From positions 1 through 64,000 of the forward strand of contig JASAND010022250.1 in NCBI GenBank assembly GCA_030248195.1: DNA of 64,000 nucleotides, read 5' to 3'. Position 1 is the first letter of the stretch. Each line of letters opens with the position of its first letter. Position numbers and translations under genes: made by a program. Below, piece by piece: positions 32,078 through 54,972 of this stretch. The stretch comes from Trissonchulus latispiculum (lineage: Eukaryota > Nematoda > Enoplea > Enoplida > Ironidae). The notes under the pieces are model-generated. The model searched no databases. It was given only the letters and a program-made list of their open reading frames with translations, and was not told the DNA's origin.

Positions 32078-32470
32078 AATATGTAATGGAATTGGTAAAA
32101 TCTGAAATTAAAATCTGTCTAAATTGATTAAAACATGGCCAGGACTTATGAAATCGGTGAAGAAGAATCTCTCTGCCATGGATTTGCGAAGAGGATCAAC
32201 AATTATCACTACGGAAAGTAATTAATAAATGATGTCCAAGCAATAATTGTATGAATTGTCTTGTGTTTGCCAAGCCAGAGTTGTCTAGTACTCAATATTA
32301 AGGGAAAATTCTTAAATAGGGACCAAGGTTTGCACGCAATTAGTACAGAAATCCTTGTAGCATTAACAATTTCAGGTGTAATTAAGTTTAAATATCGTTT
32401 AAATTACTAACAATACTAATCTGGAACGTGTAAACGAAGGGTTAATTCGGTCACCCATCCGCTAGTAACC

Positions 32471-32616
32471 GGAGTTGTCACTCCACTCAACTTCAAACGG
32501 CGGTATTTTGACAAAGCATAAAAGATCGTAATGAAAATCAGTGAGTTGTTACTCTCCACGAAGGAAAACGTCAGTAATTTGCCTAATTTTAAGCGTACTA
32601 ATGAGTTGTCACTCAT
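32471..32616 (+). ncRNA. Three TGTY-tetraloop hairpins in the LTR
   Basis: GGAGT-TGTC-ACTCC at 32,471-32,484, GAGT-TGTT-ACTC at 32,543-32,554 and ATGAGT-TGTC-ACTCAT at 32,601-32,616 share a TGTY loop closed by T-A on stems of different length and sequence. The right LTR repeats them at 49,008-49,021 (there with one stem mismatch), 49,080-49,091 and 49,138-49,153. They belong to a wider set in this element at 34,845, 43,367, 45,300, 45,337, 45,371, 45,451, 48,025-48,098, 52,315, 52,918 and 53,036. The function is unknown; an RNA-level role is inferred. Confidence 0.55.
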
Positions 32617-33009
32617 AACCTGAGTCAAGAATAGCCTATTTTTGCCACCCTGTACGCTCCCCATTAACTAAACATGAATTGACAGGAAGTTATTGACTTA
32701 TAATAGAAAATTACCTGTTCTCTTAGCAGAAAATTGGCCGTAAAAAGGCCTATAAAGTGAAAATTTACGCTAAAAACGACAAATATCGGTAGATGGTTCG
32801 ACTCTAGGCATTAAAATAGCTAAGTACGTAGTTGTACAGGTTTACTTAGGCCTAATTAGTACTAATTAGGTAATAATTGGTTAAATTTGACATTTTTTGG
32901 TAACATGACTTGGGCTCAGATGAAAGAGAATTTGATGCCGATTTCAAAAATCCAAACGCGACGTTTTAACTCCAAAAATTAAGAAAGTTATAAGTAAAAA
33001 TGTTTTTGT

Positions 33010-33186
33010 TAAGATTACACTTTTGTTGTGTAATCTTATCACTCCAAAAAGGAGTGTTCTAAAAAGTTTTTATTTTGGTTTGACTTAAGTCAAACCTTTT
33101 CTTTTCTCTTTTCCTTCCCTCTTTCTGTTGGGCCTTTCCTCAAGGACCCAACAGTTGTCTTCTCCTCAAGCTTCGGCCGAAGACAA
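33010..33186 (+). ncRNA. Cluster of strong hairpins in the LTR
   Basis: Five consecutive self-complementary units: TAAGATTACAC/GTGTAATCTTA (11-bp stem, 33,010-33,038); CACTCC-AAAAA-GGAGTG (33,040-33,056); the 20-base palindrome centred on CTTAAG at 33,077-33,096; CTGTTGGGCCTT paired with AAGG-A-CCCAACAG (33,125-33,154); and TTGTCTTC/GAAGACAA (33,155-33,186). All recur in the right LTR at 49,55x-49,73x. Such density is unlikely by chance and suggests a folded RNA (packaging, translation or export element); no known family is recognised. Confidence 0.6.
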
Positions 33187-33582
33187 AGCCAGCAAAGAGG
33201 AAAAGGGAAATGTACATAGTTTCCAGCCCAAGTCATGACTAGAAGGGGGCCGTTGCCCTTTAATAATAATAATATTGCATTAATAAGTAGCTAGGAATGC
33301 GTACGTAAGTATATACTAGGTAATTATGTAACTTATTTGTTCTGGAAAATTATACAATTTGCGCAACAATTGGTTAAAGTCCCAAAATTTAGTAAAAATC
33401 TCCCTTTGGTTGCGTTTATGTGTTAAAGAAAGTTTCCCAAAATTTTGCTAGAATTCGGGGCCCAAAATATATCAAAAAAGGGTCAGTTGGAGGGCAATAA
33501 TTCTAAAATCTCATTAATATTGACCCTCGGCGGTCAGCTGGCCCGCCTCGCCGCTGCGCCCCATATGTAAAAGGTGGCAAGC

Positions 33583-33694
33583 TTCTGGAAGCTTCCAGAA
33601 CCTTCCAGAGGCTTTGCCTCAAAATCAAAAGAAAATCCGCCTCTAAAGTCACTAATGACCTGTCATCGGGCTGCCAGCAAAACTGTCAGCCCGA
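33583..33694 (+). ncRNA. Further LTR hairpins
   Basis: An 18-base perfect palindrome (TTCTGGAAGCTTCCAGAA, 33,583-33,600) and a hairpin TCGGGCTG / CAGCCCGA with an inner CAG/CTG extension (33,666-33,694). Both are conserved in the right LTR; the palindrome is at 50,143-50,160. Confidence 0.55.
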
Positions 33695-33844
33695 CCCCAA
33701 AATTTTCTTTCCAATCAGTGTTCGTTTGAGTGCGACCGAGAGCGGTTGCTTTCCCCCCTCCCTTCTAGTGCGCTCTCCAGTGCAGTTGTTGCCTGCATGG
33801 GGGCTAAAGTGCACTCTCCCCGGTTAGGTGAAGAAATGTAGGGA

Positions 33845-33870
33845 CTTTTCTGACCTTCGGGTCAGAAAAG
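33845..33870 (+). ncRNA. 11-bp hairpin with cUUCGg tetraloop
   Basis: CTTTTCTGACC, TTCG, GGTCAGAAAAG form an uninterrupted 11-bp stem capped by the exceptionally stable C(UUCG)G tetraloop. The same 26 bases are intact in the right LTR at 50,385-50,410. It may act as an RNA structure or an intrinsic pause site; its function is unproven. Confidence 0.65.
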
Positions 33871-33964
33871 AAATTGAGAAATACAACGAACACTACAGAA
33901 CTAGGGCCATATAGGTTTGTTATACCTGGCCAAGACCTGCAATGAGGATAAAATCCTAGGAAAA

Positions 33965-34190
33965 ATCAACGGCCATTTTGGCCATTTTTTGTGTATATTG
34001 AGGCCTTTTGGCCATTTTTAATGTGTGATGTTTCTTGGGTCTTCGGGCCAATTTTTTCTACATTTTATAAGGCCAACGAACCAATTTTTTATATGTATTT
34101 TGGGCCAGTGAGCCCCACTTTTCTCAGTACCCTGGGCCTAAGGCCAATTTTAATTTCTCTAGCATGTGTGGGCCCTTGAGCCACTTTTAG
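33965..34190 (+). repeat. Degenerate ~35-50-base LTR repeats with GGCC-N4-GGCC cores
   Basis: About seven units of the form GGCC-NNNN-GGCCA followed by a T-rich tail, for example GGCCTTTTGGCCATTTTT, GGGTCTTCGGGCCAATTTTT, GGGCCAGTGAGCCCCAC, GGGCCTAAGGCCAATTTT and GGGCCCTTGAGCCACTTTT. Each core can form a minihairpin while loop and stem bases vary. The array is conserved at 50,510-50,730 in the right LTR. The short frame running through it is not a gene. Confidence 0.6.
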
Positions 34191-34700
34191 TTCTTTTATT
34201 TTAAATCGTTACTAATATTATTTTATTATTTTATTTTGATGAAAGGGACAGCTCATGTAAACCCCTCCTGTTCGATGGAGGTCTTGAGAATTGTCCCTAT
34301 TTTCGTGTTTCTGTTTTTATATCCGACACCCTCTTGCAATCGAGGTTTGTAGACCTCCGCCTCTCTTTTGTTCCATTTATTCTTATTATTTTGTTTGCAT
34401 TTCTTCGGTCAAGCCACGACCAAGCATATAGGGACCGCACAGTAGAGTTTAGTGGTAGATTACGATAAGAGGAAGAAAGAAAGAATCAGTCGGTTGAGTT
34501 AAAGAGTCAAGACCTTGTCCCTACAATAATTACTAATTTGGGTAAACTGAGTACTGGCAACTCTGGCAAACCATTGTACCGTTTGCTGTTAACTGTATAC
34601 CTGTATTGTAAGTTGCCAACTGCACTGTTTGCGGTAGTATTATCAGTTGTACGCGTGTATCCACAATTATTCTTATTATAATAAGCCTTGCTGTTTGTAT

Positions 34701-34706
34701 CAATAA
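34701..34706 (+). promoter_or_regulatory. Candidate polyadenylation signal in LTR
   Basis: AATAAA in TATCAATAAATTGCC, ~480 bases before the LTR end, conserved in the right LTR near 54,484. Other AATAAA hexamers occur earlier in the LTR (for example ~32,223), so the assignment is tentative. Confidence 0.35.
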
Positions 34707-34844
34707 ATTGCCGTGCCTTATAGTCAGTCGGGTTAACTAAGGCACCTATCCTGATCAATACTCTGGAACCATATCGGACCCCTGAACAAGTAAGTAATTA
34801 TAGTCAGACCCCTTGGACCCTACAAAGACAGCGTGACTCCGGAT

Positions 34845-35071
34845 CTTGATTTGTCAATCAAGGTTTATCAACCAGAGTTCATTTTTACTGAACCGGATTG
34901 CCCTCTGGAAAGCAAGTGCCGACCCCGCTTGCTGACGACATCAACGGAGTCTGACCCCTACCAAACAAACTCACGATCAAGACCCCACCCAGGTTGGCTG
35001 CAGGGAATTCTCAGTTTTGGACACACCACCTTCTGAGAATCCGGTGCCTAAGTTTATCGTTACCGATAAAC
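34845..35071 (+). ncRNA. Hairpins in the 3' part of the LTR
   Basis: CTTGATT-TGTC-AATCAAG (34,845-34,862) carries the same TGTC loop as hairpins elsewhere in the element. ATTCTCAG/CTGAGAAT pairs across 35,007-35,040. GTTTATCG-TTAC-CGATAAAC (35,052-35,071) has a perfect 8-bp stem. All three are repeated in the right LTR. Confidence 0.5.
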
Positions 35072-35189
35072 GTGCTGACCTTCCGTGCCTTGAAGTGGTT
35101 GTTACCCCAAACCTGCGTCTTGTTAGACCGAAACGGACCTGAATCCTGCCGAAAAGAAGTTGGAGCTAAATCCTAGCCACTTCATTACA

Positions 35190-35368
35190 CGGTAAATCAA
35201 TTTCTGGAGCCCCCAGTGAGGACCACCCTACGGAGATTATCCAGTTGGACAACCTGCCAGTGAGGACAATCACGACCCAAGGACTCAATCATTAAGATCA
35301 AACGAGGATCCACCCTTACCCTTTCAAGGAATCAGCTACGACCCTACCGATCAACTCAAGAAGAAAGT
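35190..35368 (+). promoter_or_regulatory. Leader between left LTR and gag
   Basis: A primer site would be expected directly after the LTR. The nearest TGG is at 35,205 (TGGAGCCCCCAGTGAGGA), 15 bases in, and I cannot match it to a tRNA with confidence. CCAGTGAGGAC occurs twice (35,213-35,223; 35,257-35,267); each contains CAGTGAGG, a plausible splice-donor-like sequence that could serve the downstream ORFs. Confidence 0.4.
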
Positions 35369-37015
35369 ATGGAGCAGTTTGACCCTGCAGATGATAATGG
35401 AAATGGACCCCCGAACATGGCACCGCCAAATGCCCCTCCTGGTCCCCCCGGAATTCCCCCTCCCTATAACCCCAAAATGCCCCAGTTGGTTTTCCCCCAG
35501 ATGCCTATCCTACATAATGGAAATGTGGAGGACCTTCTAGGCCAGCTGCGTGACAGCATCCAGAATCAGGCCATTGCTGCCTCCTACCGAGATATGCCCA
35601 TTTACTCCGGAAAGGACCATGAAAACTTCGATGATCACCTGGTCAACTACGAGAAGTTCAGCCAGAGGCTCAATCTGGACGACTACCAGAAAGTCATGAA
35701 CATCTCCTCTACCCTCCGAGGTCGAGCCGCAGAGATTTATAAATGCATGCCCAGAGGCGCCATGCGACAGAACGATTGGGAAACCTCTGTAAGAGCCCTC
35801 AGAGAAGTCATGATCCCTCCCATGACAGATATGCATGCCACGGCCAAACTGTTCAGCATCAGGCAAATGCCGCACGAATCAGTTGCTGACTTTTCCCTCA
35901 GATTGCAGAAGTATGCCCGAATCGCCTGGGAAGACCGAGGAGATCCGGGTATGCTGGAAGATATCAAATTAAAGACCTTCCTCATAGGATTGCGGAACGA
36001 ATTCAAGCCGCACGTCCCTATGGACACCGCAGATTACTCCCTGGCCTTTAAGAAGGCCCGAGCAGCAGAAGGCGTCTACCCTGGAGAAGGAACCCCTGCC
36101 TTTCTGGAAGTGGACCCTGAAGCCTCCATCCCAAATACAAACCTCACCGGCCCAGCCCTCCTTAATACCATCAGTTCCCTAGTCCAGAGTACTGCGCTGC
36201 TTGCCAATGAGATCAAGGAAATCAAGATTTCAGGAAATGAACCGTCCAGATCAGCTCCCCCGCCCCGGAAGGGAAATGATAAGATCCCATTCCCCAATGA
36301 TTTCAGGTGTTTCAACTGTGGAAGAGCAGGACACTCCAAGCGCGAGTGCAGATCGCCTGGAGGTGGAGCCTACCGACCCAGAAACGATTTTGCCGGCCCG
36401 CCGCGCAACAACTACAACAACAATGGCAATGGAAATTCTAACAACTTCCGACCCAACAACGGACAGCCAAGGTATCCCCTCAGTGGAAATGGAATGAAAA
36501 GGAACTACAACGAACGATATCCACCCAGAAATGGGCCTCCTGGACAACATCAGCAATACCCCCAGCCGAAGCCTCAATGGAGCAGAGATAATGGGCGCAA
36601 CGCCAATGAAGTTGTCCATGCACCCTACGGGTCAAGATTTGCTGACGTGGGTCATCAGAAGAACCCACCTCCCATGGTCCAAGCCATAAGTGCCGAGCCC
36701 GAAGGTAAGACCGCCTATTTCCCTCCTAACCACTCCAGTCTGCCTACCCAGATCTTACAGCTAGAGCAGGAAATCAAGGATTTGGGAGGCCAATACTTCT
36801 CCGTCCCTCCCTATGTCAAGATTGAACAGCCGAAAGGAGGATCTGCCTACACCCTGAATGCTGAGGAAGACTCTGTGGACCCTGAAACTGAGCGACTGGA
36901 TCGTGAATTGCATTCCTTACCTATGTACCAGAAACCAATGTCTGTTACTTATCCCCGGACCCACAGACTGGAAGAACCCCAGACCATAGAGTATGGCTAT
37001 CCGTCTCACGTCTAA
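35369..37015 (+). CDS. gag: Gag of the giant element
   Basis: Intact 548-codon ORF starting at the first good ATG after the leader. Residues 1-45 are Pro/Asn-rich. Residues ~70-235 look like the retrotransposon Gag capsid region (GKDHENFDDHLVNYEKF, MHATAKLFSIRQMPHESVAD, then KTFLIGLRNEFKPHV). A canonical CCHC zinc knuckle CFNCGRAGHSKREC lies at ~314-327 and is followed by an Asn/Pro/Arg-rich RNA-binding-like stretch. The ~90-residue C-terminus is acidic. Gag would form particles around element RNA. The gene ends TAA-CGG, and the same frame stays open through to the next long ORF, so a readthrough product is possible. Identification as Gag is firm; family assignment is not. Confidence 0.9.
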   Translation: MEQFDPADDNGNGPPNMAPPNAPPGPPGIPPPYNPKMPQLVFPQMPILHNGNVEDLLGQLRDSIQNQAIAASYRDMPIYSGKDHENFDDHLVNYEKFSQRLNLDDYQKVMNISSTLRGRAAEIYKCMPRGAMRQNDWETSVRALREVMIPPMTDMHATAKLFSIRQMPHESVADFSLRLQKYARIAWEDRGDPGMLEDIKLKTFLIGLRNEFKPHVPMDTADYSLAFKKARAAEGVYPGEGTPAFLEVDPEASIPNTNLTGPALLNTISSLVQSTALLANEIKEIKISGNEPSRSAPPPRKGNDKIPFPNDFRCFNCGRAGHSKRECRSPGGGAYRPRNDFAGPPRNNYNNNGNGNSNNFRPNNGQPRYPLSGNGMKRNYNERYPPRNGPPGQHQQYPQPKPQWSRDNGRNANEVVHAPYGSRFADVGHQKNPPPMVQAISAEPEGKTAYFPPNHSSLPTQILQLEQEIKDLGGQYFSVPPYVKIEQPKGGSAYTLNAEEDSVDPETERLDRELHSLPMYQKPMSVTYPRTHRLEEPQTIEYGYPSHV

Positions 37016-37114
37016 CGGCGACTGTCCCAGAATCCTACTGCTTCCCTACCCCTAAGTGGGAAGACCACCGAGAAGGAAAGTTCCTTTGAGCCGTCTGTCG
37101 GTGAACCTGCGCAA
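37013..37114 (+). other. Possible stop-codon readthrough junction
   Basis: After the gag TAA (37,013-37,015) there are 33 sense codons in the same frame leading without a stop into the 1,207-codon ORF at 37,115. The codon after the stop is CGG; a following CGG or CUA is known to favour readthrough of UGA in some genes. An in-frame single stop recalls gag-pol junctions of gammaretroviruses, but here the downstream partner is not pol. Simple coincidence or a spliced start for the second ORF remain possible. Confidence 0.4.
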
Positions 37115-40100
37115 ATGGCCCAGCCCCCATCGCGAAAGCCTGCTGGTCCATATGATGCCAATCCGCGGAAGAATCCGATGCGGGATCATTCTTTAGGACG
37201 TGGTCGAGGGCTACAAAGGAGTCCCCGATGCCATGATTTTACCCAAACCTATCCCAAGCCTCGATTTCAGTCAGCCCCTCCATCCGACGCCCTAACCATC
37301 GGACTTGGTGAAGCCGTCCGGGAATTCCGAATTCAGCTTGGGTTGTCACCCGATCCACAATTGCCGTCTCTCCCCGGGCAAGAAAGAGGGAAGGCGATCC
37401 ATTCTGAACGGACCGAACAAAGACCAGATCTGAGAATGAAGCCTCCGGCGGATATGGCCGCTGTGATGCAGTGTGCTCAAAAAGTGCTTGCTCATGGCGG
37501 GATGGCCATGGACTTGTTACACGCTCCGTTAGTCACTGAGAAAGAACTGATGAAATGGGAAGAGCCAAAAGAGCTGGTTCAGAAGCATACACCTCACGAA
37601 GCGGTTTCAATCGGGCCCCGACCGGTAAGAACCCCCAACCCTTGTCCCATTGATATGGGCCCAGTGATGACCTTTGCTCGACGAGTTTTGGATCGAGTTG
37701 GAGAACCGTTCACTGAGGAAGAGCTCCTCAGGGCCATGGATCCCAGCATTTTCCTAACCCAGGACGGATCCTATTCCCCGCCGAGAAAGGAATATCAAGT
37801 CAGTGACCTTATCAAGTACCCGGAGAGAGGAAGATTCAAGATCATTGATCAGGAGGCTATCTACGAAGTTAGCCGAAGAATCCTGAAGAGGCTTGGTAGG
37901 TCCGTATCTGATGAGAACTTCTATTGTTCCCTTGACAGTGACATATTGGAAGCGCCTGAAGAATCGCCTCATGCTGGTAGATTGGATCTCTGGGTAGAAA
38001 ATCTCCTCAACACCTCCATCCCCTTGACCTGGAGATTACTCCAGGACGGAAAGGAAAATCGCTACCCCCTGTCCAGCCTGTCTGACAGGCCTGTCATTGA
38101 TGATTTAATGGATAGTTTGGAGGAGACAACCAGCTCCAACACCTCAGAAGGATCAGACGAGGAATTGAACACGGCTGTGAGGAAGCTTCGCTCCCGGGAA
38201 ATCCGAGTGAACCTTAACGCTGTTGAACCTACCGTCATAAAGACCAGAAAGAACAGGAAGAGCAAAAAGAAGAAGAAGAAGGCTATTAAGATAAAGAAAA
38301 CTCTGGGGGAGGTTCATATACCAGAGTCTGACCTGTGTCCCCAGGACATTAAGTTCCTTCGCCGACTTCTGAAAGATGTCCGAAGTAAAGAGAGGAAACG
38401 CGCCCAGAAAGAAGAGCGACGTGCCTGGCAAATGAAACGAGAACGCGAAAGAAGTTGGGAATCATACCAGCAGTACCTCATGGCCCGAGCCCGAATGGAG
38501 GCCCTTCACCCAATCAGGAGAACAACTGACTCGCCCCCGCCCCGGAGAAAGACTCCTACCCCGACTCGCAAGAGTAGCCCAAGGTCAAGTTCTGTTCCCA
38601 CAACTGTACGACTACCCGAGGAAGAACTGATTCTAACTTCCCCCAACGATGAGCATAATGAACTTCCTACGCCCAAAACAGCCACGGAAGCGAAACATCC
38701 GACCTCATTGCCCTTTCCCATCCTAGTGATGTGGATTGCCCTCGGTTTAATGATAGCCCTGTTGGTCCCCTGCATCCAGGCACAAGATAGTGACGACTAC
38801 TTCACACAAAGGGCTAAGGCAATGAATACCATGGTCTCCACCAAGTGGGGTTTGGCCCTATCCCCTAAAGGTTTAATGGCAACCTATACCAAGACGGAAT
38901 ATGTCCCTATTCTAATCCATATGAAAGTGCCTAAACCCCCTCAACTCAAGAAAATGCAAGCGTGGGTATTCTTCTGTTCTCTTTGTGGAGGAGAGCCAGC
39001 TTCTGTCCCAGAAAGCCTGCAGGCACAATGTAAGAAGTGTGACACCCCTCGGAACCGAGCGAACGAACTGCTTGCTGATTGCCCTCATGAACCTCATCTA
39101 ACTGGACTGATTAGAAATGTGACCGAAGAATACCATGAAATGTACGGTGGAATACTTAACACTAGGTATTATTCGTCCGTGATGAAAATTATCTGCGACA
39201 AAAGCCCCATCCTCTGTAACACCTCCAAACCTAAATATCAGGAATACAATGAATCCCTGTATGCTGATCACGGATTTCAACACGTAAAATCCCAGTTCCC
39301 CTTGCAAAGATCTAAACGAGCTATTGGCGCCATCATTGGTATAGTTGGACTTGGTATGTCCATCTCTAATACTGTCAGCCTAGGACTCGTAAAGGATAAA
39401 GTCAATACCATCATTGAAGCGACTCAAAAACTGGACGAACAAGTGATCGCTCATACAGAAGCTCTGGAAAGATTAGTTGAAGCTAATGAACAGATCTATT
39501 CCTTCATGCATTATTCCCTGCAGGAACTGGTTGGACTGATCAATTCTGCGCGATGTGAGGCCCTAACTATGAGTACGCAAGTACAATATTCCTTGGTTGT
39601 ATCCAACTTTGAGCATTCCCTCAAGCACAGTATTGACAGCGTTATGGCCGCGGGACTAGATGGACGGATTTCTCCTAGCCTCATCAACTACAAGATTATC
39701 CATGACATCGTAAACGGACACGCCCAATTGAACCAAACCATCCTGAGAGACGAACCCAGCCTGATCTATAGATTTGGAAAGATCTACCCTGTAAGAATGG
39801 ATATTAGGAAATTACTGTTCGGATTCATTATGGAAATACCCACCCCCACACGGGAGGATGTGGCCCCTATTTATGAGGTCAGTAATGTGGGATATAATGA
39901 CCCCTCGAATCATGCCCAAATGAAGGCCCCAGTCCCTCGATTCATCAGACATGAAGTTGCCCACCATAGTTCCGAATTTTCTGAAGTCAAACTCGAAGAG
40001 TGTCAATCATCGCCCGGACTATGGGTCTGTGGACCGGAGTCATTGGTCTCCACACCTCAATCAGCCTGTCTCAAGGCGATTGTTTCAGCTACACCCATTG

Positions 40101-40738
40101 ACTCCGCCAATTGTAGACAGCAGATGATGGTAAAAGTCCTGACCCCCGACACGGACTTTGCCTCCACGCCAGCAGGAGTCCTGATCAGAACTAGCCACCC
40201 AGAAATCATGCTTACGCAAACCCCCCAACTGCAACATGTGTCACGAGGTGAAACTATCCCTGTGCCCAGTAACGGTGTAATATGGCTAGAGCATGGATCC
40301 TACAACCACATCGTAGTTGGTGACCTGGTGCTAACCAGCGCAATAGAGGTTCTACAGTATTCGGCACCTCTTATCACCTACCGGGTTCCCTTCGAAGCCC
40401 CTGATCTAGGTGTGGTCTCCATCCAGTTCACTGATTTGGAACGAGCAGAATACGAAAACAAAGCCGTGAAGAAACTGCTGGAAAAGCATCACCGCACCGC
40501 ACCTCTTGTCATCCATCCGCTCAACATGAATGTCTGGACAGCTTTCATTATTATCCTTGTTCTGATTGCGGTGGGAGTAATCCTTACGATCTGGTTCTCC
40601 CCATGCATGGGCAATGTCCGGGCTAGCCTTATTAAACGGATGCGAGGATCATGTTTCGGTCTAGGACAAACATTGAGTAGATTTGGGGACTGGGATCCAA
40701 AGAGCTCCGACCTCTCCTCCTACCTCACCTCCTGTTAG
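37115..40738 (+). CDS. env: Long ORF: repeat/basic region plus class I-like envelope glycoprotein
   Basis: 1,207 codons, intact. Residues ~110-270 hold three ~67-residue repeats sharing VM..A..VL...G, ..F.RRVLDRVG..FTEEELL and .YEVSRRILKRLG cores. A lysine/arginine-rich part follows (~376-470), then Ser/Pro-rich linker. A hydrophobic segment at ~533-553 followed by CIQA-QDSDD looks like an internal signal peptide opening the Env part. The ectodomain has CXXC-type cysteines (~620-655), a furin-like RSKR at 732-735, a Gly/Ala/Ile-rich fusion-peptide-like stretch right after it, a heptad region (~765-830), further cysteines, and a transmembrane helix at ~1,140-1,165 with a ~40-residue tail. The layout matches class I fusion envelopes; the precise family is not assigned. 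Env may be made from a spliced mRNA or cleaved from a larger precursor. Confidence 0.82.
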   Translation: MAQPPSRKPAGPYDANPRKNPMRDHSLGRGRGLQRSPRCHDFTQTYPKPRFQSAPPSDALTIGLGEAVREFRIQLGLSPDPQLPSLPGQERGKAIHSERTEQRPDLRMKPPADMAAVMQCAQKVLAHGGMAMDLLHAPLVTEKELMKWEEPKELVQKHTPHEAVSIGPRPVRTPNPCPIDMGPVMTFARRVLDRVGEPFTEEELLRAMDPSIFLTQDGSYSPPRKEYQVSDLIKYPERGRFKIIDQEAIYEVSRRILKRLGRSVSDENFYCSLDSDILEAPEESPHAGRLDLWVENLLNTSIPLTWRLLQDGKENRYPLSSLSDRPVIDDLMDSLEETTSSNTSEGSDEELNTAVRKLRSREIRVNLNAVEPTVIKTRKNRKSKKKKKKAIKIKKTLGEVHIPESDLCPQDIKFLRRLLKDVRSKERKRAQKEERRAWQMKRERERSWESYQQYLMARARMEALHPIRRTTDSPPPRRKTPTPTRKSSPRSSSVPTTVRLPEEELILTSPNDEHNELPTPKTATEAKHPTSLPFPILVMWIALGLMIALLVPCIQAQDSDDYFTQRAKAMNTMVSTKWGLALSPKGLMATYTKTEYVPILIHMKVPKPPQLKKMQAWVFFCSLCGGEPASVPESLQAQCKKCDTPRNRANELLADCPHEPHLTGLIRNVTEEYHEMYGGILNTRYYSSVMKIICDKSPILCNTSKPKYQEYNESLYADHGFQHVKSQFPLQRSKRAIGAIIGIVGLGMSISNTVSLGLVKDKVNTIIEATQKLDEQVIAHTEALERLVEANEQIYSFMHYSLQELVGLINSARCEALTMSTQVQYSLVVSNFEHSLKHSIDSVMAAGLDGRISPSLINYKIIHDIVNGHAQLNQTILRDEPSLIYRFGKIYPVRMDIRKLLFGFIMEIPTPTREDVAPIYEVSNVGYNDPSNHAQMKAPVPRFIRHEVAHHSSEFSEVKLEECQSSPGLWVCGPESLVSTPQSACLKAIVSATPIDSANCRQQMMVKVLTPDTDFASTPAGVLIRTSHPEIMLTQTPQLQHVSRGETIPVPSNGVIWLEHGSYNHIVVGDLVLTSAIEVLQYSAPLITYRVPFEAPDLGVVSIQFTDLERAEYENKAVKKLLEKHHRTAPLVIHPLNMNVWTAFIIILVLIAVGVILTIWFSPCMGNVRASLIKRMRGSCFGLGQTLSRFGDWDPKSSDLSSYLTSC

Positions 40739-41111
40739 CTCTGGTCCGTCAGAACCACGTAGCCAGTCTCCCTTGCTCGAAAGACCGCTGCCCCCAATGC
40801 GTCCAACCACGCTAAACAGAACTAAAGGGTCCAGACCCCGCTCATATGCTTATGCATCTGGAGGAGGGCAGATAAGATTCGAAGAGATCCCCCTAGAACC
40901 ACTACGACCTTACTCTCCCGGTTCCCCAGAGATAGGATATCCTAACCCTATTAGACCCAGAAGACCTCTGATATCCGGACCTGAAGAAGACCATCAAGGA
41001 AACGAACCGTTTCACCAACTTCACCAGTATGGAGCCGGATCATATGAGCAAGAAGTCCGCCGCCTCGCGCAGCAAGCACCGATGTTGGTAGGATTGGAAC
41101 TCGAGTCCTAA
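40683..41111 (+). CDS. Proline-rich frame overlapping the env 3' end
   Basis: This frame (+1 to env) is open for ~142 codons but has no ATG in its first part; the first in-frame ATG is near 40,798. Composition is protein-like: PTSPPTSPPVSSGPSEP, then LERPLPPMRPTTL, RSYAYASGGGQIRFEEI and PYSPGSPEIGYPNPIRPRRP. It could be an alternative envelope tail reached by frameshift or splicing, or an exon of another product. The PTSPP / PPxY-like content recalls late-domain-type motifs, but this is speculative. Confidence 0.45.
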   Translation: MGTGIQRAPTSPPTSPPVSSGPSEPRSQSPLLERPLPPMRPTTLNRTKGSRPRSYAYASGGGQIRFEEIPLEPLRPYSPGSPEIGYPNPIRPRRPLISGPEEDHQGNEPFHQLHQYGAGSYEQEVRRLAQQAPMLVGLELES

Positions 41112-41182
41112 CTCCACCACCCTATCAGGGTAACCGATCTAGAGATTCGTCTACCGGAAGAAGGGATAGGGTCTGGTGCCTC

Positions 41183-43535: not shown

Positions 43536-43540
43536 ATGCT

Positions 43541-43549
43541 TTATTTCAG
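43541..43549 (+). promoter_or_regulatory. Candidate splice acceptor before the NADAR ORF
   Basis: TTATTTCAG followed by AAACAACATG places a good 3' splice-site sequence eight bases before the ATG at 43,557. The next accessory ORF block has the very similar AATTTCAG (45,571-45,578) ahead of its ATG at 45,603. Together they suggest subgenomic spliced mRNAs. Confidence 0.4.
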
Positions 43550-43556
43550 AAACAAC

Positions 43557-45527: not shown

Positions 45528-45848
45528 ATGTTCACATACATCCTGCTTAACAGGCTGACATTAATCTATGAATTTCAGAAAATATATCATCACCAGAAGG
45601 AGATGAATGGTAATCCAGCTATGGATACAGCCCCCCGATCCTACACCCCGCTGATGACGGTGTCTCAGAATCTGTCCTTCCGGAGCCCTATGGTTCTTCC
45701 GGGACTCAGGGTCCCCTCCCATTATCTGACTACTCAGAATATTAGGCACAGGGCACCAGTGCCTAGCCCTCGCATCCCTTATGTGGGATTCCGGCCCATT
45801 ACAGTGGCCCCCCCAATCAGCCTCTGTGGATGTGTGTCCACAATGTAA
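45528..45848 (+). CDS. Small ORF A of unknown function
   Basis: 107 codons from the upstream ATG. The ATG at 45,603 (~81 codons) is a better candidate because a splice-acceptor-like AATTTCAG precedes it. Pro/Ser-rich (MDTAPRSYTPLMTVSQNLSF). Overlaps ORF B by 68 bases in another frame. The sequence just before the overlap end contains a C7 run (45,808-45,814); an indel or slippage there would join it to ORF B. Function unknown. Confidence 0.4.
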   Translation: MFTYILLNRLTLIYEFQKIYHHQKEMNGNPAMDTAPRSYTPLMTVSQNLSFRSPMVLPGLRVPSHYLTTQNIRHRAPVPSPRIPYVGFRPITVAPPISLCGCVSTM

Positions 45849-46668
45849 CACGCCCTTCGCCAAGCCTGGAGAGCCAAAGGCAGCGACCAACTGCCCCGTC
45901 AAGGTCCCGCACGCAGCCGGGAAATACACCGAAAGGAGGGACCTCAATGATCATCCCTTCCACGTCCCCTCGGCCTACAAGGCTGCCCACCTCCTCAAGC
46001 TGGTGGAGGAAATGAAGCGATACCCCGTTGGCATGCAACATCCGGGATACAAGGCCAATATGGACGCTGTCGGCCTGAGGCTGCGTGACAGCCTCATCCA
46101 ATTTGAGAATCATATCCGACCCTTCCCCGGTATGACCCCACATGATGAAATTCAGTCCGCCTTCAGAAATTTCCTGTTAAAGATCAACATCGAGCGGATG
46201 ACCGAAGCGGACATCGCCCTCTTCTTGCGGGAACTGGAGGACCTGAGGATAGACATCCTACTCCTCATCAACACTCCCGGGTTCAAGGTAGAGCGCCCCC
46301 TATTCCCTGAGCCGCCCTTTGGAAAATTCCCCCCATATCCTACCCTCTGCCATCCAGATGGCCCCCCGGCCGAACAGCACGCCCCTACTGCCATTCCCTC
46401 CCCCCAGTCGGAAAACTCACCATTTTCTGTTGGGGAGGATAGGAATGATGAGGAAGGTGAGGAAAACGAAGAGATGGACCTTACCGAAGACGACCTCAAG
46501 ATCCTCTCATGCAGCGGCTTGAGGCCGCCCTTGGACTCAGCCAAAGCGGAGCAACCTCCGACGAGCAAGACCCTGATCTGGATCCCCTCCCTCCGTTGGA
46601 TATCAAGGCCCCCCTCCTGCCGGAGGAATGGCGGGACAGCGTACCTGCCTATATCCAGAGGGAACTAA
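45781..46668 (+). CDS. ORF B of unknown function (zinc-ribbon-like start, acidic end)
   Basis: 295 codons with an ATG. Near the N-terminus is a Cys motif, VDVCPQCNTPFAKPG with a third Cys in ATNCP, resembling half a zinc ribbon. The middle (~50-160) is probably helical (AYKAAHLLKLVEEMKRYPVG, MTEADIALFLRELEDLRID). It ends in a very acidic stretch (EDRNDEEGEENEEMDLTEDD). The last ~50 codons, after 46,509, look less protein-like than the overlapping frame C, so the true product may shift frames there. No homologue is recognised. Confidence 0.5.
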   Translation: MWDSGPLQWPPQSASVDVCPQCNTPFAKPGEPKAATNCPVKVPHAAGKYTERRDLNDHPFHVPSAYKAAHLLKLVEEMKRYPVGMQHPGYKANMDAVGLRLRDSLIQFENHIRPFPGMTPHDEIQSAFRNFLLKINIERMTEADIALFLRELEDLRIDILLLINTPGFKVERPLFPEPPFGKFPPYPTLCHPDGPPAEQHAPTAIPSPQSENSPFSVGEDRNDEEGEENEEMDLTEDDLKILSCSGLRPPLDSAKAEQPPTSKTLIWIPSLRWISRPPSCRRNGGTAYLPISRGN

Positions 46669-46883
46669 AGGCCCTGGATAGCTGCCTCGACGCAGGTATC
46701 ATACCTGTGATCGAGTATTGGAGGCAGATCGGGGAACTGAAGACCATCGCCCATGAGAAGGCCCGTGCCATCCGGGCAACCACTGACGAATACCATCGAC
46801 AGGAATTGGAATCCCCCCTTCCTGAGGAGGACCTGGAGGATTACTTGCATGAGATCCTCACGTACGATCCCTACGGCCAGTAA
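46509..46883 (+). CDS. ORF C of unknown function
   Basis: 124 codons with an ATG, overlapping ORF B by 160 bases. Composition is protein-like and predominantly helical (PEEWRDSVPAYIQRELKALD, IEYWRQIGELKTIAHEKARA, PEEDLEDYLHEILTYDP). It probably continues the acidic region of ORF B, through either a programmed shift, a recent indel, or independent initiation. No family recognised. Confidence 0.45.
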   Translation: MQRLEAALGLSQSGATSDEQDPDLDPLPPLDIKAPLLPEEWRDSVPAYIQRELKALDSCLDAGIIPVIEYWRQIGELKTIAHEKARAIRATTDEYHRQELESPLPEEDLEDYLHEILTYDPYGQ

Positions 46884-48618
46884 ATAACGCCCTCTGAAGC
46901 CCCCTAGTATGACTGGTCGATTCTGTATATAAAGTGTGTAAACGCCTAAAGGGAAAGTTTAAAAAGAAAGCCAAAAAAGAAGCATATTTGGAAAACATAC
47001 AAAAAATTTACTTAATCAAGAAAATCCAACAATATTACGTAAGGACTATTATGTATTCAGGGCGTGCAGTGAATATTTCATATTGTCTGTATAGCATGGT
47101 TAGGGGTATATTTTATTGAATGTATAAACAGTGGGATTTGTCATGTTGTACTATTGTACTAATTACTAATGGGTGAACGGAAAGGATCTGGCAAGTGTCT
47201 AAGTAATGAGAAAGTAAACCAAAGAATTAATTGAGGGAGGTTATTAGGTATCAGCTGTAGTTGCCAAACTGTTTCGTAGTTGTTAATGATTGTTGTATAG
47301 TTAATCTGGCTTACGTAGGTTCACTAAACGGCTAGTAGCTAGGAATTCTGCATTGTGTACAGGTTTAGTGAAAATGTGTATAATTTCCCGATGTTATGTT
47401 TATTTGATGATAGTTATGTGTTTGTTTGTACAGCTGTTGAGTGCTTGTGGCGGATTTTGAAGAGTTAATCCTTTCGTCTCAAAAATATCGTGAAGCTAGT
47501 ACACCTAACGTAGAAAATGTCCCGAAAATAGCTCAGGTAACGGAGGAATTCATCGTCATATTATGTTGTGTCTGTATTAGTACTTAGGAACTCATTGTCA
47601 TATTGTGTTTTGTCTGCATTAGTATTTGTTTCGATAGCGTTGTATTTTACCAGTTATTCGTGAAGGCTAGAATCAGAGAACGATAAAGGAAGGGAACAGT
47701 TTTAACGAGAACGGAACGAGCTTATGAGATAGTTTTGCAGTTGTTAGTTACAGAAGTCAGATTGTGAAGTAATTGCGATATCAGTAGATCTTTTGGAATA
47801 TGAGGAAGAAGTATGACTCTGCAGTTGATGATTGTATTTTTTTTGATTTTTGGTATTGGCCACTGATGATTTGATTTTGATGCTGACTATTGATAAACCT
47901 CTTTGTGCAGAACAATTATCTGATATGGAAAGTAATGTGTGAAATGGAAATTATTAAAAAGGGTAGCCGGTATTTCGTTTAATCTGTAAAGGGACAAGGT
48001 AACTATAAGTAACTCGCAGTGAACAATCGGGTTGTTACCCCGATTCTAAGAAATCTGGTTGTTACCCAGATTTTGCGAAATCGGGTTGTTACCCCGATCA
48101 GTCGGAAGAGTATTGAACCACGTAGTGTGAAAAGAATGAAGTGAAGAGTAACGGTGGTTGCGGAACGGACCCACAGAAGGTCGACCCCACTAGAAATAGA
48201 AATATGCAAATTAGTCTGTAGTAATGAATAGAAGAGCGACGGTGGCTGCGGAACGGGCCCATAGAAGGCCGACCCCACCCAAGATGAGGAATAGAACATA
48301 AGTAACGATCAGTAGTTATGATAGAGAAGTAATTAATAAAGAATTAAGGAGTAATTAATGGTTACTAATCCTAGTATATGAGGTAGCTGAATCAGAAGTA
48401 TTGAACGCAACGTACGCAGTAGTTAATTATGATAATCTTTACCCGTCCTTCTTGCAACAGAAGTGAATACTTGTCAATTGTGCTTCTTGTATGGATTAAA
48501 TGACAATGTGTGTGGAAGAGGAATTGAGTTATGATTTAATTTGGTCGGGAATCATTAGTTTCGAAACATTTTGGTCTTTCCCCCTAGTCAAAAGCCTAAC
48601 CATTTTATTTGTGGAGGT
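46884..48618 (+). other. 3' untranslated region of the giant element
   Basis: About 1.7 kb of AT-rich DNA without a gene, ending at the right LTR. A polypurine tract is not obvious; the bases before the LTR are TTTGTGGAGGT. It includes the triple hairpin at 48,025-48,098, and a repeated phrase: CGGTGGTTGCGGAACGGACC (48,152) recurs as CGGTGGCTGCGGAACGGGCC (48,239), 87 bases later. Confidence 0.55.
48025..48098 (+). ncRNA. Three phased TGTT-tetraloop hairpins
   Basis: Stems AATCGGGT/ACCCCGATT, AAATCTGGT/ACCCAGATTT and AATCGGGT/ACCCCGAT each enclose TGTT and each carries one unpaired C on the 3' side. The loops start at 48,033, 48,060 and 48,087, an exact 27-base period. The middle stem has a changed base pair on both strands (CGGG/CCCG to CTGG/CCAG), a compensatory change that supports real base pairing. 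Confidence 0.65.
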
Positions 48619-51600
48619 TGTAATGGAATTGGTAAAATCTGAAATTAAAATCTGTCTAAATTGATTAAAACATGGCCAGGACTTATGAAATCGGTGAAGA
48701 AGAATCTCTCTGCCATGGATTTGCGAAGAGGATCAACAATTATCACTACGGAAAGTAATTAATAAATGATGTCCAAGCAATAATTGTATGAATTGTCTTG
48801 TGTTTGCCAAGCCAGAGTTGTCTAGTACTCAATATTAAGGGAAAATTCTTAAATAGGGACCAAGGTTTGCACGCAATTAGGACAGAAATCCTTGTAGCAT
48901 TAACAATTTCAGGTGTAATTAAGTTTAAATATCGTTTAAATTACTAACAATACTAATCTGGAACGTGTAAACGAAGGGTTAATTCGGTCACCCATCCGCT
49001 AGTAACCGGAGTTGTCACTTCACTCGACTTCAAACGGCGGTATTTTGACAAAGCATAAAAGATCGTAATGAAAATCAGTGAGTTGTTACTCTCCACGAAG
49101 GAAAACGTCAGTAATTTGCCTAATCTTAAGCGTACTAATGAGTTGTCACTCATAACCTGAGTCAAGAATAGCCTCTTTTTGCCACCCTGTACGCTCCCCA
49201 TTAACTAAACATGAATTGACAGGAAGTTATTGACTTATAATAGAAAATTACCTGTTCTCTAAGCAGAAAATTGGCCGTAAAAAGGCCTATAAAGTGAAAA
49301 TTTACGCTAAAAACGACAAATATCGGTAGATGGTTCGACTCTAGGCATTAAAATAGCTAAGTACGGAGTTGTACAGGTTTACTTAGGCCTAATTAGTACT
49401 AATTAGGTAATAATTGGTTAAATTTGACATTTTTGGGTCGAAACATGACTTGGGCTCAGATGAAAGAGAATTTGATGCCGATTTCAAAAATCCAAACCCG
49501 ACGTTTTAACTCCAAAAATTAAGAAAGTTATAAGTAAAAATGTTTTTGTTAAGATTACACTTTTGTTGTGTAATCTTATCACTCCAAAAAGGAGTGTTCT
49601 AAAAAGTTTTTATTTTGGTTTGACTTAAGTCAAACCTTTTCTTTTCTCTTTTCCTTCCCTCTTTCTGTTGGGCCTTTCCTCAAGGACCCAACAGTTGTCT
49701 TCTCCTCAAGCTTCGGCCGAAGACAAAGCCAGCAAAGAGGAAAAGGGAAATGTACATAGTTTCCAGCCCAAGTCATGACTAGAAGGGGGCCGTTGCCCTT
49801 TAATAATAATAATATTGCATTAATAAGTAGCTAGGAATGCGTACGTAAGTATATACTAGGTAATTATGTAATTTATTTGTTCTGGAAAATTATACCATTT
49901 GCGCAACAATTGGTTAAAGTCCCAAAATTTAGTAAAAATCTCCCTTTGGTTGCGTTTATGTGTTAAAGAAAGTTTCCCAAAATTTTGCTAGAATTCGGGG
50001 CCCAAAATATATCAAAAAAGGGTCAGTTGGAGGGCAATAATTCTAAAATCTCATTAATATTGACCCTCGGCGGTCAGCTGGCCCGCCTCGCCGCTGCGCC
50101 CCATATGTAAAAGGTGGCAAGCTTCTGGAAGCTTCCAGAACCTTCCAGAAGCTTTGCCTCAAAATCAAAAGAAAATCCGCCTCTAAAGTCACTAATGACC
50201 TGTCATCGGGCTGCCAGCAAAACTGTCAGCCCGACCCCAAAATTTTCTTTCCAATCAGTGTTCGTTTGAGTGCGACCGAGAGCGGTTGCTTTCCCCCCTC
50301 CCTTCTAGTGCGCTCTCCAGTGCAGTTGTTGCCTGCATGGGGGCTAAAGTGCACTCTCCCCGGTTAGGTGAAGAAATGTAGGGACTTTTCTGACCTTCGG
50401 GTCAGAAAAGAAATTGAGAAATACAACGAACACTACAGAACTAGGGCCATATAGGTTTGTTATACCTGGCCAGGACCTACAATGAGGATAAAATCCTAGG
50501 AAAAATCAACGGCCATTTTGGCCATTTTTTGTGTATATTGAGGCCTTTTGGCCATTTTCAATGTGTGATGTTTCTTGGGTCTTCGGGCCAATTTTTTCTA
50601 CATTTTATAAGGCCAACGAACCAATTTTTTATATGTATTTTGGGCCAGTGAGCCCCACTTTTCTCAGTACCCTGGGCCTAAGGCCAATTTTAATTTCTCT
50701 AGCATGTGTGGGCCCTTGAGCCACTTTTAGTTCTTTTATTTTAAATCGTTACTAATATTATTTTATTATTTTATTTTGATGAAAGGGACAGCTCATGTAA
50801 ACCCCTCCTGTTCGATGGAGGTCTTGAGAATTGTCCCTATTTTCGTGTTTCTGTTTTTGTATCCGACACCCGCTTGCAATCGAGGTTTGTAGACCTCCGC
50901 CTCTCTTTTGTTCCATTTATTCTTATTATTTTGTTTGCATTTCTTCGGTCAAGCCACGACCAACATTTTTACCATGCTTATAAGGCTCGTTGGCCAGTAA
51001 ATTCGGGGTTTTGACGTAGAATACGGGATTACTAAGTGGGGACCCCGCCCCTGAGTCTGAGCTAGAGGGTCCCTTTGCTACGACCCTAGAATGTTAAGCT
51101 AGTAATAGGAATTATTACCCCACAGCCGGCAACTAGGAGTTGCCGGCCTTATTGTTTTGTCACGGCTTTGTTAAGCCCAAAAAAGTCATTGTCTGTAATT
51201 TGTAATTGTTTGTCGTAGGTCGGTATGAAAATTAACAGGTTATCAAAAGTGTGAAAAGAGTTTTTAAATGAAGTCCTAAAATAATCGCTTGTCTTATAAT
51301 CCATAGTTTCTTTAATAATTAATAATCAAGCGTTTCACGGGGAATGACCGGCTTCCCCATTAGTTAATTTAATTGTTGACAGTAGTTTGGTTTTTTGAGT
51401 AATGATTGCTTAGCAATCATTACTCACACGGCTTTCCAAGTTTTAAAATTCTTCAAAGTTGGCAAAGTTCTGCGCTAAAAGCCGAGTTTTAGGACTCTAA
51501 AACTCGCAACAAAACCTTTATTAAATCATATTAAACTAATAACTAATAATCACCATTGAATGGGCACTTAAAGCTCTAGTTAAGGGTATAGACGATCCCA

Positions 51601-54600
51601 TAAATTAGATTTAGTATACATGAATTGCCCTTAGGTGTGTGTGTGTGTGTGTATGTGATTGAGATTAGTTAGATAAGTACCTACTTAAGAGGTTGCGTGT
51701 TTGTGAGTGTATGTGTGTGTGCGAGATTGTATGAATGGCATTGTATGGTAGGCACAATCGGTATGAATGACTGTAAGTTGTTGATATGAGTGTATGCTAG
51801 TCTGACTGTCGTATAAATGATGCTTAAATGTTTAATTATGTTGTGTCGCAAATGTTATGTGAATGTTGCCTGAATGTCGTGTGAATGAGGATCAAATGTT
51901 TACCTAGTTGTGTGATCTGAACAGTATACAAGTATTGTACGTCGAATGCTTAACTTAGTAACAGGATTACGATTATTAAGCGCTAGTTAGTCAGAAAGTG
52001 TGTAAGTGCTGTATGTGTGTAGGATGTGATTGAATAAGTGACTGTTCCTATCTGTAACGAGTGTCTGTGTGTATAGTTGTGTGAAGCACCAGAATTAGTT
52101 AGGACTCCTATAGTACGCAGGAAAACAATAATGGGTAAGGTAGTTCTAGTGGATGAGTCCTGTATGCATGCCTGGAAGTTTGTGAACGAATGATTACGTC
52201 GGTAATTTAGGTTTAGGCTCAAAGTAGCAAATATGTAAATGAGGTCCAGACCAAGGGATCTAGGGTCACGGGGACCCCGTATTAGGTCCTTACTGGTCGG
52301 AAAAGGGTTATCCTCGATTCGTCCGCGTAGGCCACTCTTTGTTAAGAGTGCGGACGAATCGCATGAAGGAAAACTCTCCAATAGTTGATCTTTTTACTCA
52401 AAACCAATACCCAGTGCTATTACTATTTTTTAATTAACTATATTTAACCTAGATTTTGATTGTAGTAGCGACAACTGCCGCCGTTTTTAGTTTGAGATCA
52501 ATGCATGATGTTATTGCCATTTTCAGTTGATTTAGCCACATTCAACGCAAATTTCGTCCTTAATTATGACCGCGATGACGGTTCGGCACCTTTTCATGTC
52601 AGTGCCCATGTTTAAAGATATACCTAGCTAAATTCGGTTATATAACATTTGGCAAGGGTAAGAGATCCACCTTGCCCAGCTGACGTTTCTCGCAAACTCG
52701 GTTCACAATGATTAATTGCAAATGGCGATAACAGGTTCTTACTAAGTAGCAATTTTAACTAATATTAAGTAGTGACTAACAAGGTACCCGAAAGGATGGA
52801 TATAACGATTAATTACGTAAGTATTAGGGATAGTTGCCAGAACCATCTTCCGAAAAAGGCAAAGTTAACAAAGTGCACAAGTTTAATCAGTTTCCGAAAG
52901 TCAATATCTGTTAAAGCAGGAAGTTGTTACCTTCCTCTTTTAGGGCCCGGGAAAACGGAGGCCTTAATCTCACTTACTACATGTTTATCAAATTAATTAG
53001 TAGTCTCTTCTAATTAATTAATGTTTGTCATAAGCAGGAAGTTGTTACCTTCCTCGTTCGGACCTAGAAAACTAGAGGTCCCAAGCTCAATCACGCTTGA
53101 ACAAAGTAGCGATATGCGTTTCAAAAACAATTAGTATCCGCCTGTTTCGAAAGGGCTCAAAATAACCGTAATCTCACGCTCCCAGTCTGGGTTGCATCGA
53201 AACAAGAGGTACAAGGCGATATCATGTCGTAATGGCAATTTCTTGCACAAGAGTGCAAGAAATTGTGCGAAAAATGGTATTTCGCCTTAAAACTAACTCT
53301 CAATGCAGCAATATTGTTAAAACTGCACCAAGTTACGATATTCTCGCTAAACTTTCAAGTTTTCACAGCAAAGTCAAGTTTATAAGTCCAATTCTTGTTC
53401 AGAAAGCCAAAGATGTGAGTAGTGGTTGCTGGGTTCGAATCCCGCACCTATAACTTGTACTAATGGGTTTTAACCCATTTGATTCAGGTGCGGACGAGCG
53501 AGCATCTCCTGCCTGGATTAGCCGAAATCTGCCTCTGAACTAGTGAATCACTTTAATCAGTCCTGTGTAGTTGCAGTATATTGGAAGGCCGAAGAGCCCG
53601 TATCAGACAGTTGGAATCAGGAACTATTTGGAATCAGATACTATTTGGACCTCAGAGTAGGTGTTCTTGCTGAGTCAGAGATTGACATAGACTTTTGAAG
53701 GCAGAGACGGTTTTGGAATTGCACTGAATCATCTGTGGGACCTGAAACCTAACAAAGCGAACTGGACCTTATTTTCCGTTACTTTAAAATAACTCTTTAC
53801 TTTTTACCTCAAAAGATGAACCTTTTCGAACTAATCGTCAGCCTTATCGAAGGGGTTATCACCCCTTGTCCCTGGTCTAACTAATCAGTGATAATTTCGA
53901 GTCAGTCGGAAGTAGAAGACATAAAGAAGAGATTAAATATAAACCTACCTTGTACTAACACCATAACCGTTCCCAGGAAACTCCCAACCGGACCGACCCT
54001 TGCGTTGTCCCCCCCAGGTGACCGAACAGCATCCGAAAGTGCTATTGTTACTGGCATTTCGGGCTCACCCACAGACCGGAATTCTTGTGCTACTAACAAC
54101 TTTAATCTAGTTAATTTTACCTTTTCTGTAGATTATTATTATTATCATACTGTTGTCCTTGGTAAGGAGGACGGATAAAGAGTTTTAACTTAAAGCACGA
54201 GCACAAGCATATAGGGACCGCACAGTAGAGTTTAGTGGTAGATTACGATAAGAGGAAGAAAGAAAGAATCAGTCGGTTGAGTTAAAGAGTCAAGACCTTG
54301 TCCCTACAATAATTACTAATTTGGGTAAACTGAGTACTGGCAACTCTGGCAAACCATTGTACCGTTTGCTGTTAACTGTATACCTGTATTGTAAGTTGCC
54401 AACTGCACTGTTTGCGGTAGTATTATCAGTTGTACGCGTGTATCCACAATTATTCTTATTATAATAAGCCTTGCTGTTTGTATCAATAAATTGCCGTGCC
54501 TTATAGTCAGTCGGGTTAACTAAGGCACCTATCCTGATCAATACTCTGGAACCATATCGGATCCCTGAACAAGTAAGTAATTATAGTCAGACCCCTTGGA

Positions 54601-54972
54601 CCCTACAAAGACAGCGTGACTCCGGATCTTGATTTGTCAATCAAGGTTTATCAACCAGAGTTCATTGTTACTGAACCGGATTGCCCTCTGGAAAGCAAGT
54701 GCCGACCCCGCTTGCTGACGACATCAACGGAGCCTGACCCCTACCAAACAAACTCACGATCAAGACCCCACCCAGGTTGGCTGCAGGGAATTCTCAGTTT
54801 TGGACACACCACCTTCTGAGAATCCGGTGCCTAAGTTTATCGTTACCGATAAACGTGCTGACCTTCCGTGCCTTGAAGTGGTTGTTACCCCAAACCTGCG
54901 TCTTGTTAGACCGAAACGGACCTGAATCCTGCCGAAAAGAAGTTGGAGCTAAATCCTAGCCACTTCATTACA
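48619..54972 (+). repeat. Right LTR of the giant element (6.35 kb)
   Basis: Starts TGTAATGG and ends CATTACA. Positions 48,619-50,963 match 32,082-34,423, and 54,204-54,972 match 34,421-35,189, with only scattered substitutions. The remaining block, 50,964-54,206, has no counterpart in the left LTR. All the hairpins of the left LTR recur here. Confidence 0.85.
50964..54206 (+). repeat. 3.24-kb segment present only in the right LTR
   Basis: Non-coding. It lacks TIRs, LTRs or a clear target duplication: only CAA is shared at both junctions, inside the similar strings CACGACCAA and CACGAGCACAA. It carries hairpins of the same kinds as the rest of the element, including AGGAAGT-TGTT-ACCTTCCT twice (52,918-52,936; 53,036-53,054), AAGGGGT-TATC-ACCCCTT (53,850-53,867) and CACTCTT-TGTT-AAGAGTG inside an 11-bp outer stem (52,315-52,361). 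Others are GCCGGCAACT/AGTTGCCGGC (51,125-51,147), a 15-bp inverted pair at 51,396-51,426, CGAGTTTTAG/CTAAAACTCG (51,483-51,506) and a 13-bp stem at 53,236-53,265. I infer that it is native LTR sequence deleted from the left copy. A GT-rich simple repeat lies at ~51,637-51,655. Confidence 0.6.

Follow-up and report, generated by a model that had tools for sequence, protein, structure and literature searches.

A 64,000-nt stretch of the genome of the nematode Trissonchulus latispiculum (contig JASAND010022250.1, positions 1 to 64,000; hereinafter designated the window) harbors a long terminal repeat (LTR) retroelement of about 23,000 bases (32082-54972), whose 13.4-kb interior keeps gag, env, protease and accessory genes and in which we detected no reverse transcriptase (RT), RNase H or integrase (IN). 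It probably belongs to a giant Ty3-like LTR family of Burro type, as a non-autonomous form that lacks pol and is copied by the RT and integrase of pol-bearing siblings. A family with two forms, one with a long polyprotein that includes pol and a shorter one without it, is the simplest account of the data.

A giant LTR element without pol

No Pfam family for RT, RNase H or integrase is matched in the five long open reading frames (ORFs) or in 20 other interior ORFs, a scan that covered 25 of the 115 listed ORFs of at least 50 amino acids (aa). A six-frame scan of the interior for [YFLI]xDD-type motifs has no match, although it does recover YIDDI from a neighboring Ty3-like element (19672-24141); tblastn with the RT and IN of that neighbor returns nothing below E 0.8 from the interior. 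A VIDDL noticed by eye in ORF2 belongs to an acidic stretch without an RT profile match. An HHCC-type pattern has one match, on the minus strand near 48514; the pattern missed the neighboring element's own integrase and so offers no usable control. In a full solo LTR, no open stretch exceeds 136 aa. The set of RT, RNase H and integrase that an autonomous Ty3/Gypsy (Metaviridae) element carries within itself is missing here, and the initial annotation, which had reported none of the three in any frame, holds by profile, tblastn and motif scan alike.

Both LTRs have TG...CA termini (in full TGTAATG...CATTACA) and AATA lies on each side, giving the direct repeats and short target duplication of an LTR retroelement, which are also seen in a second copy on contig C15318. 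The two LTRs differ by 20 substitutions (11 transitions and 9 transversions) and five gap events over 3123 aligned sites, about 17 of which, at a deletion joint, are counted twice. The Kimura two-parameter distance is 0.0064 (0.6% divergence), and the window element is a recent insertion; the termini, the duplication and the roughly 20 differences first counted by eye all stand.

The 3226-bp piece by which the 3' LTR exceeds the 5' LTR lies at the same LTR position, whole or with further gaps, in eight of nine other sampled contigs (C15318, C3205, C18733, C13976, C11221, C4619, C20939 and C20992), the ninth (C15888) stopping ahead of it. The native LTR is therefore about 6.3 kb long and the window 5' LTR has been shortened by a deletion, whose joint shows about 17 bp of microhomology. 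Reading the 3.2-kb extra of the 3' LTR as an insertion was rejected, since other copies show the piece to be native. Six interior-less (solo) LTRs of 5.9-7.4 kb were also found, with perfect 4-bp duplications in each of the six for which both ends were compared. Ten more LTR matches were sampled as small pieces; the LTR end is visible in six, and in none of these six do leader or gag follow it.

Table 1 Coordinates of the element and its parts within the window
Feature	Position	Strand	Description	Basis
Left target site duplication	32078..32081	.	AATA	Equal to right copy
5' LTR	32082..35189	+	3108 bp; internal deletion of 3226 bp at 34411-34427 relative to native ~6.3 kb
Leader	35190..35368	+	Candidate primer site TGGAGCCCCCAGTGAGG from 35205	173/177 bases shared with C15318
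gag	35264..37015	+	First ATG 35369; Retrotrans_gag capsid domain and one CCHC knuckle	Pfam
ORF2 N-terminal part (ORF2N)	37016..38713	+	Same frame as gag	No Pfam family
env	38714..40738	+	Hydrophobic signal, RSKR cleavage site at 39308, fusion-peptide-like stretch, C-terminal hydrophobic anchor
Linker	40677..41111	+	Proline-rich, different frame; inside the single frame of C16077
ORF3	41048..42727	+	Retropepsin 41240-41536, then capsid-like domains 41762-41968 and 42137-42346
Spacer 1	42728..43493	.	A+T-rich
ORF4	43494..45125	+	NADAR domain 43659-44198, Arg/Ser-rich C-terminus	Pfam NADAR 5.8e-11
Spacer 2	45126..45729	.
ORF5	45730..46883	+	45730-46668, then 46461-46883 in another frame; 447-aa frame in C16077
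Tail	46884..48618	.	A+T-rich; short purine run GTGGAGGT before 3' LTR
3' LTR	48619..54972	+	6354 bp, native length; 50967-54192 is the part absent from the 5' LTR
Right target site duplication	54973..54976	.	AATA

The interior is rich in long frames, its longest plus-strand stop-free stretch being 1240 aa against a maximum of 305 aa in 60 second-order Markov simulations. Gag shows the capsid and CCHC constitution expected of an LTR retroelement (Retrotrans_gag E 4.9e-8 plus CCHC) and closes in TAA, where the frame of another copy, C16077, continues. ORF2N contains three to four weakly similar repeats at 37436-38005, which match no known Pfam family, and a basic stretch. The env protein reaches Fusion_gly (PF00523) at 27.1-28.8 bits (E 1.7e-6 to 4.9e-7) and that of C16077 at 24.3 bits, below the curated 29.8; env is a putative relative of mononegavirus F, its match falling short of the cut-off. 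A PDB sequence search with env lists F proteins at E 0.08-0.42 only, and a single-sequence structure prediction (mean predicted local distance difference test score, pLDDT, of 39.3) was set aside.

The ORF3 protease matches Pfam RVP/Asp_protease. The two domains behind it match a profile of this element's own gag capsid at 33.5 bits, where none of 1000 shuffles scores above 4.9, and recur in ORF3 of C16077 and of a further copy, C3544; Pfam Retrotrans_gag reaches the second one of C16077 at E 0.03. In C16077, the region from gag through ORF2, env, protease (PR) and both capsid-like (CA) domains forms one open frame of 2567 codons (836+1731), whereas between gag and ORF3 the window copy is interrupted by one stop, after gag, and shifts frame twice, near 40.7 kb and near 41.1 kb. 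In view of the single frame of C16077, the stop and both shifts are most likely decay. The gag, env-like, retropepsin and accessory genes initially listed over 13.4 kb are accordingly present by Pfam, with frames that are not all intact.

For ORF4, a PDB sequence search returns a NADAR protein at E 0.009; its single-sequence structure prediction (mean pLDDT 36.5) was likewise set aside. Pfam matches Fusion_gly, the protease and NADAR in C16077 and gives nothing convincing for its ORF5, for which no known relative was found. The usual polypurine tract is absent just before the 3' LTR (48590-48618), which is preceded only by GTGGAGGT, identical in C16077. Rfam and tRNA scans of the window found nothing. 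A self-priming leader was rejected, the LTR holding no leader match of at least 10 bases.

The pol-less layout in other copies

We searched the same genome (733.8 Mb in 21,732 contigs) with the first 619 bp of the LTR (662 first-look candidates, 40 of these scored, 41 matches) and with the leader (296 candidates, 40 scored). Other copies with these LTRs exist, including a second complete interior without pol in C15318, which is colinear with the window element through all spacers at 88.7-96.4% DNA identity in the aligned pieces. The LTRs of C15318 are 98.5-99.2% alike and flanked by their own target duplication, TATA, so that this copy is an independent recent insertion. Compared with the window LTR, they are 81-86% alike over the first 2.3 kb and about 95% over the last 0.8 kb. 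Gag follows directly after the leader at eight cut-out loci (L048-L055, including the window and C15318) and in C16077.

C16077 and C3544 are more distant. Their leaders are 83% identical to that of the window, in a match that does not run through the LTR end, and the C16077 LTR resembles the window LTR only in patches of 72-91%; the four pol-less copies carry at least two kinds of LTR. Both have the order ORF2-env-PR-CA-CA, NADAR, ORF5, without pol, C16077 covered over its whole interior and C3544 from mid-ORF2 to past ORF5, with its gag known only as a search match. Their ORF3-ORF5 proteins share 48-66% identity with those of the window element. The retention of everything except pol, claimed at first for one copy, extends to all four interiors examined (window, C15318 and C16077 whole, C3544 in part). 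The layout common to copies so far apart makes the pol-less form seem old, judging from protein divergence.

Elsewhere, gag of this family occurs twice on the same strand of C9117, at 35322-37064 and 43272-45014 (a distance of about 8 kb), possibly in nested or tandem elements.

Long-form siblings in the same genome

A gag protein query gave 2751 candidates, and the 75 matches scored (the window included) are 78-100% identical. The stop-free frames around gag have two peaks, at 2510-2573 aa (17 of 75) and at 3787-3841 aa (seven of 75: C17124, C6651, C16813, C4438, C6111, C3815 and C12107); four of the remaining frames exceed 1900 aa and 47 fall below. In C4438, whose gag is 84% identical to the window gag, 1 kb open in the gag frame matches RT_RNaseH (7.1e-41) and RT_RNaseH_2 (5.1e-41). 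A candidate pol-coding partner is thereby found in the same genome.

Both frame lengths occur at 78% gag identity (long in C3815 and C12107, short in C8190 and C11075) and again at 84-88%. Long and short forms are thus intermixed by gag, through either recombination in shared particles or repeated loss of pol. By codon count, RNase H of C4438 begins near codon 2650 of its frame. Provided that the regions upstream are of the same length in both forms, the long-form RT would then occupy about codons 2350-2640, the place of the second capsid-like domain in C16077. On this arithmetic, pol and the capsid-like tail may be alternatives to one another.

Selection on the retained genes

The open frames of the window copy alone prove nothing about selection; the signal is the divergence between copies. 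With only 0.6% LTR divergence, this copy is too young to have decayed and is uninformative on selection after insertion. We therefore compared the window with C15318 by the Nei-Gojobori method, excluding codons that touch gaps and counting in-frame stops without using them (C15318 has one in env and one in the linker). The ratio of nonsynonymous to synonymous divergence (dN/dS) is 0.053 in env (628 codons), 0.076 in ORF4 (432 codons), 0.077 in gag (540 codons), 0.10 in ORF5 (223 codons), 0.18 in PR (136 codons), 0.23 in both ORF2N (560 codons) and the CA-like part (376 codons) and 0.26 in the linker (99 codons), with 0.55 in a 33-codon env end piece. These low ratios agree with the initial suggestion that structural and accessory genes behave as if selected.

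Of the changes in the CA-like part, 56% fall at third codon positions, and for gag, env, ORF4 and ORF5 this share is 71-79%; the control values (the largest of three registers) are 51% for spacer 1, 49% for the tail and 43% for spacer 2. Measured against these controls, gag, env, ORF4 and ORF5 show a clear selection signal and the other parts a weaker one. Synonymous divergence (dS) ranges from 0.10 in ORF5 to 0.51 in gag, an unevenness that suggests a mosaic built by recombination. Against the distant copies, rough ratios are 0.05 for env and 0.14 for ORF5 of C16077 and 0.06 for ORF2N of C3544, formed only for these three and limited by near-saturated synonymous change (proportion of synonymous differences 0.67-0.83).

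Copying in trans and its alternatives

The window element and C15318 inserted separately, with AATA duplicated at one site and TATA at the other, and the form to which they belong multiplies without RT and integrase of its own. The enzymes must therefore come from elsewhere, most likely from the siblings. In the mechanism that we propose, pol-less RNA would be packaged, via its well conserved leader, into particles that also hold sibling Gag-Pol; sibling RT and integrase would then copy and insert it, yielding the LTRs, TG...CA ends and 4-bp duplications. Selection would keep gag, env and protease since the pol-less form itself would make particles, possibly serving cell-to-cell or germline spread. 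The supply of pol in trans put forward in the initial annotation is made plausible by the sibling with RNase H in the gag frame, the supply itself being inferred.

The same annotation had gone further and proposed a divided genome. Half of this stands, a pol-less form having pol-bearing siblings, and half is in doubt: in a divided genome neither part would be complete, whereas the long-form sibling, with gag and pol together in a single frame, may be autonomous. The two forms look more like a helper and the non-autonomous element that depends on it. We entertain only tentatively a broader version, in which forms with and without pol have persisted side by side during long divergence, exchanging gag by recombination in shared particles and dividing functions (RT and integrase on the first; NADAR, ORF5 and the capsid-like tail on the second); if true, a divided, two-form retroelement would be the counterpart of a segmented or satellite virus. 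Strict mutual need, with pol supplied by the long form and the capsid-like tail, NADAR and ORF5 present only on the pol-less one, is unlikely: the codon arithmetic that places long-form RT at the second capsid-like domain of C16077 speaks for it, whereas gag and pol in one long frame could suffice alone.

Distinctly unlikely is a series of dead-end deletion derivatives, in which pol was lost repeatedly, no pol-less lineage lasted and the selection signal stems from pol-bearing ancestors. The intermixing of long and short frames at similar gag identity (78%, 84-88%) fits such losses. The same gene order in four copies, the colinearity of the window and C15318 in every spacer and the two capsid-like domains after the protease in each of three copies tested do not, and independent deletions would hardly give one layout in copies only 48-66% identical. 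Pol-bearing relatives, named at the outset as grounds for regarding this copy as a simple deletion, do exist, but the shared layout of C15318, C16077 and C3544 shows that it did not simply lose pol.

Several observations nevertheless weigh against a pol-less form that is maintained in its own right and copied by siblings. The long-form pol evidence is 1 kb of C4438, one of seven long copies, and C16077 is the single interior examined among the 17 copies with frames of 2510-2573 aa. C3544 is covered only from the middle of ORF2 to beyond ORF5, and some of its frames are broken; the Ty3 integrase query matches this copy at E 0.004 and 0.07, both antisense, and its env contains IIDDL. C15318 has FLDDL in a 60-aa antisense ORF, and LADDI occurs in LTR sequence. 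We take all of these matches as chance. In ORF2N, linker and PR, the third-position share is 48-50%, at or below the spacer 1 or tail control, and selection could have acted on pol-bearing ancestors from which pol was lost repeatedly.

Two remaining sources of pol carry little weight. RT and integrase from unrelated Ty3 elements are very improbable: one such element sits in the same window (19672-24141), but its gag has no significant tblastn match in the main element and a closer pol source exists within the family (C4438). That pol is present in the interior or the 6.3-kb LTR and too diverged for recognition is scarcely credible, even with ORF5 and ORF2N lacking an assigned function and Pfam applied to 25 of 115 ORFs, given the six interior frames free of a [YFLI]xDD-type motif, the 136-aa limit in the solo LTR and the ready recognition of sibling RNase H.

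Relation to known elements

To our knowledge, pol-less LTR elements generally keep little coding capacity, and non-autonomous LTR elements of the TR-GAG/LARD type keep at most gag. The window element resembles these in being an LTR element without pol, TR-GAG also keeping gag, and differs from them in retaining env, protease and accessory genes as well. Here structural, envelope and accessory genes show signs of long maintenance in copies unable to copy themselves, and the pol-bearing siblings in the same genome make the co-evolution of retroelement parasites and helpers testable, together with the splitting of shell-making from copying between genomes and the use of a NADAR enzyme to a retroelement.

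Among the closest described systems is Burro, the giant gypsy-like elements of planarians, which encode gag-X-env(F)-protease in one polyprotein with pol after the protease (PMC6431247). Shared with Burro are the giant LTR element, gag at the N-terminus of a huge polyprotein, an env, here putatively related to mononegavirus F, between gag and protease, and accessory domains; env lies between gag and protease in the single frame of C16077 and in the broken frames of the window copy. In Burro the protease is followed by a dUTPase-like domain, RT, RNase H and integrase (PMC6431247), whereas two capsid-like domains follow here, and no pol was found in the window element, in C15318, in C16077 or in the covered part of C3544. 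The accessory domains there described are BCL2, BIR and MATH (PMC6431247), against NADAR here. The long-form siblings may be a nearer match to Burro.

An F-type env from paramyxovirus-like viruses within an LTR element is also described for TelKA of bdelloid rotifers (PMC5408684), where bdelloid LTR elements, unlike the window element, code gag and pol, with env as ORF3. NADAR is reported from Gypsy Pol of Ectocarpus and from oyster Tx1 ORF1 (PMC12477816); the Ectocarpus Gypsy families share with our element the capture of NADAR by a Ty3/Gypsy element, although NADAR here is a separate downstream gene. The available part of PMC9503650 mentions no NADAR in retroelements. Troyka elements were considered and rejected on their CG...CG ends and 3-bp duplications (PMC12440569). 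Searches of one open-access library for pol-less LTR elements with gag and env showed none, judged by the listed titles and abstract openings; a listed paper on fungal elements (PMC5872316) contains the words 'lacking pol'.

Against 5.8 billion proteins, none of 6981 candidates for env reaches E 0.001. For gag, with 8000 candidates scored, one protein is 39% identical (P0001) and another shares the knuckle region only (P0002); a search with a gag alignment adds P0003, which has 42% identity to gag of the window element. No relative came from IMG/VR, which was scanned with the same alignment and with gag, env, ORF3 and ORF4 singly.

Other features of the window

The neighboring Ty3-like element (19672-24141) contains a gag ORF, RT (RVT_1 1.3e-33) and an integrase core in separate frames, and none of its gag, RT and IN has a significant match in the main element. 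It is adjoined by a large inverted repeat (24290-26365 / 28500-30397), whose arms are fully complementary over up to 1104 nt and bear AT microsatellites at their outer ends; this is either a foldback element or an assembly artefact. At 18404-18597, a 25-bp unit is tandemly repeated in 7.8 copies within a 169-aa open frame that the repeat itself probably created.

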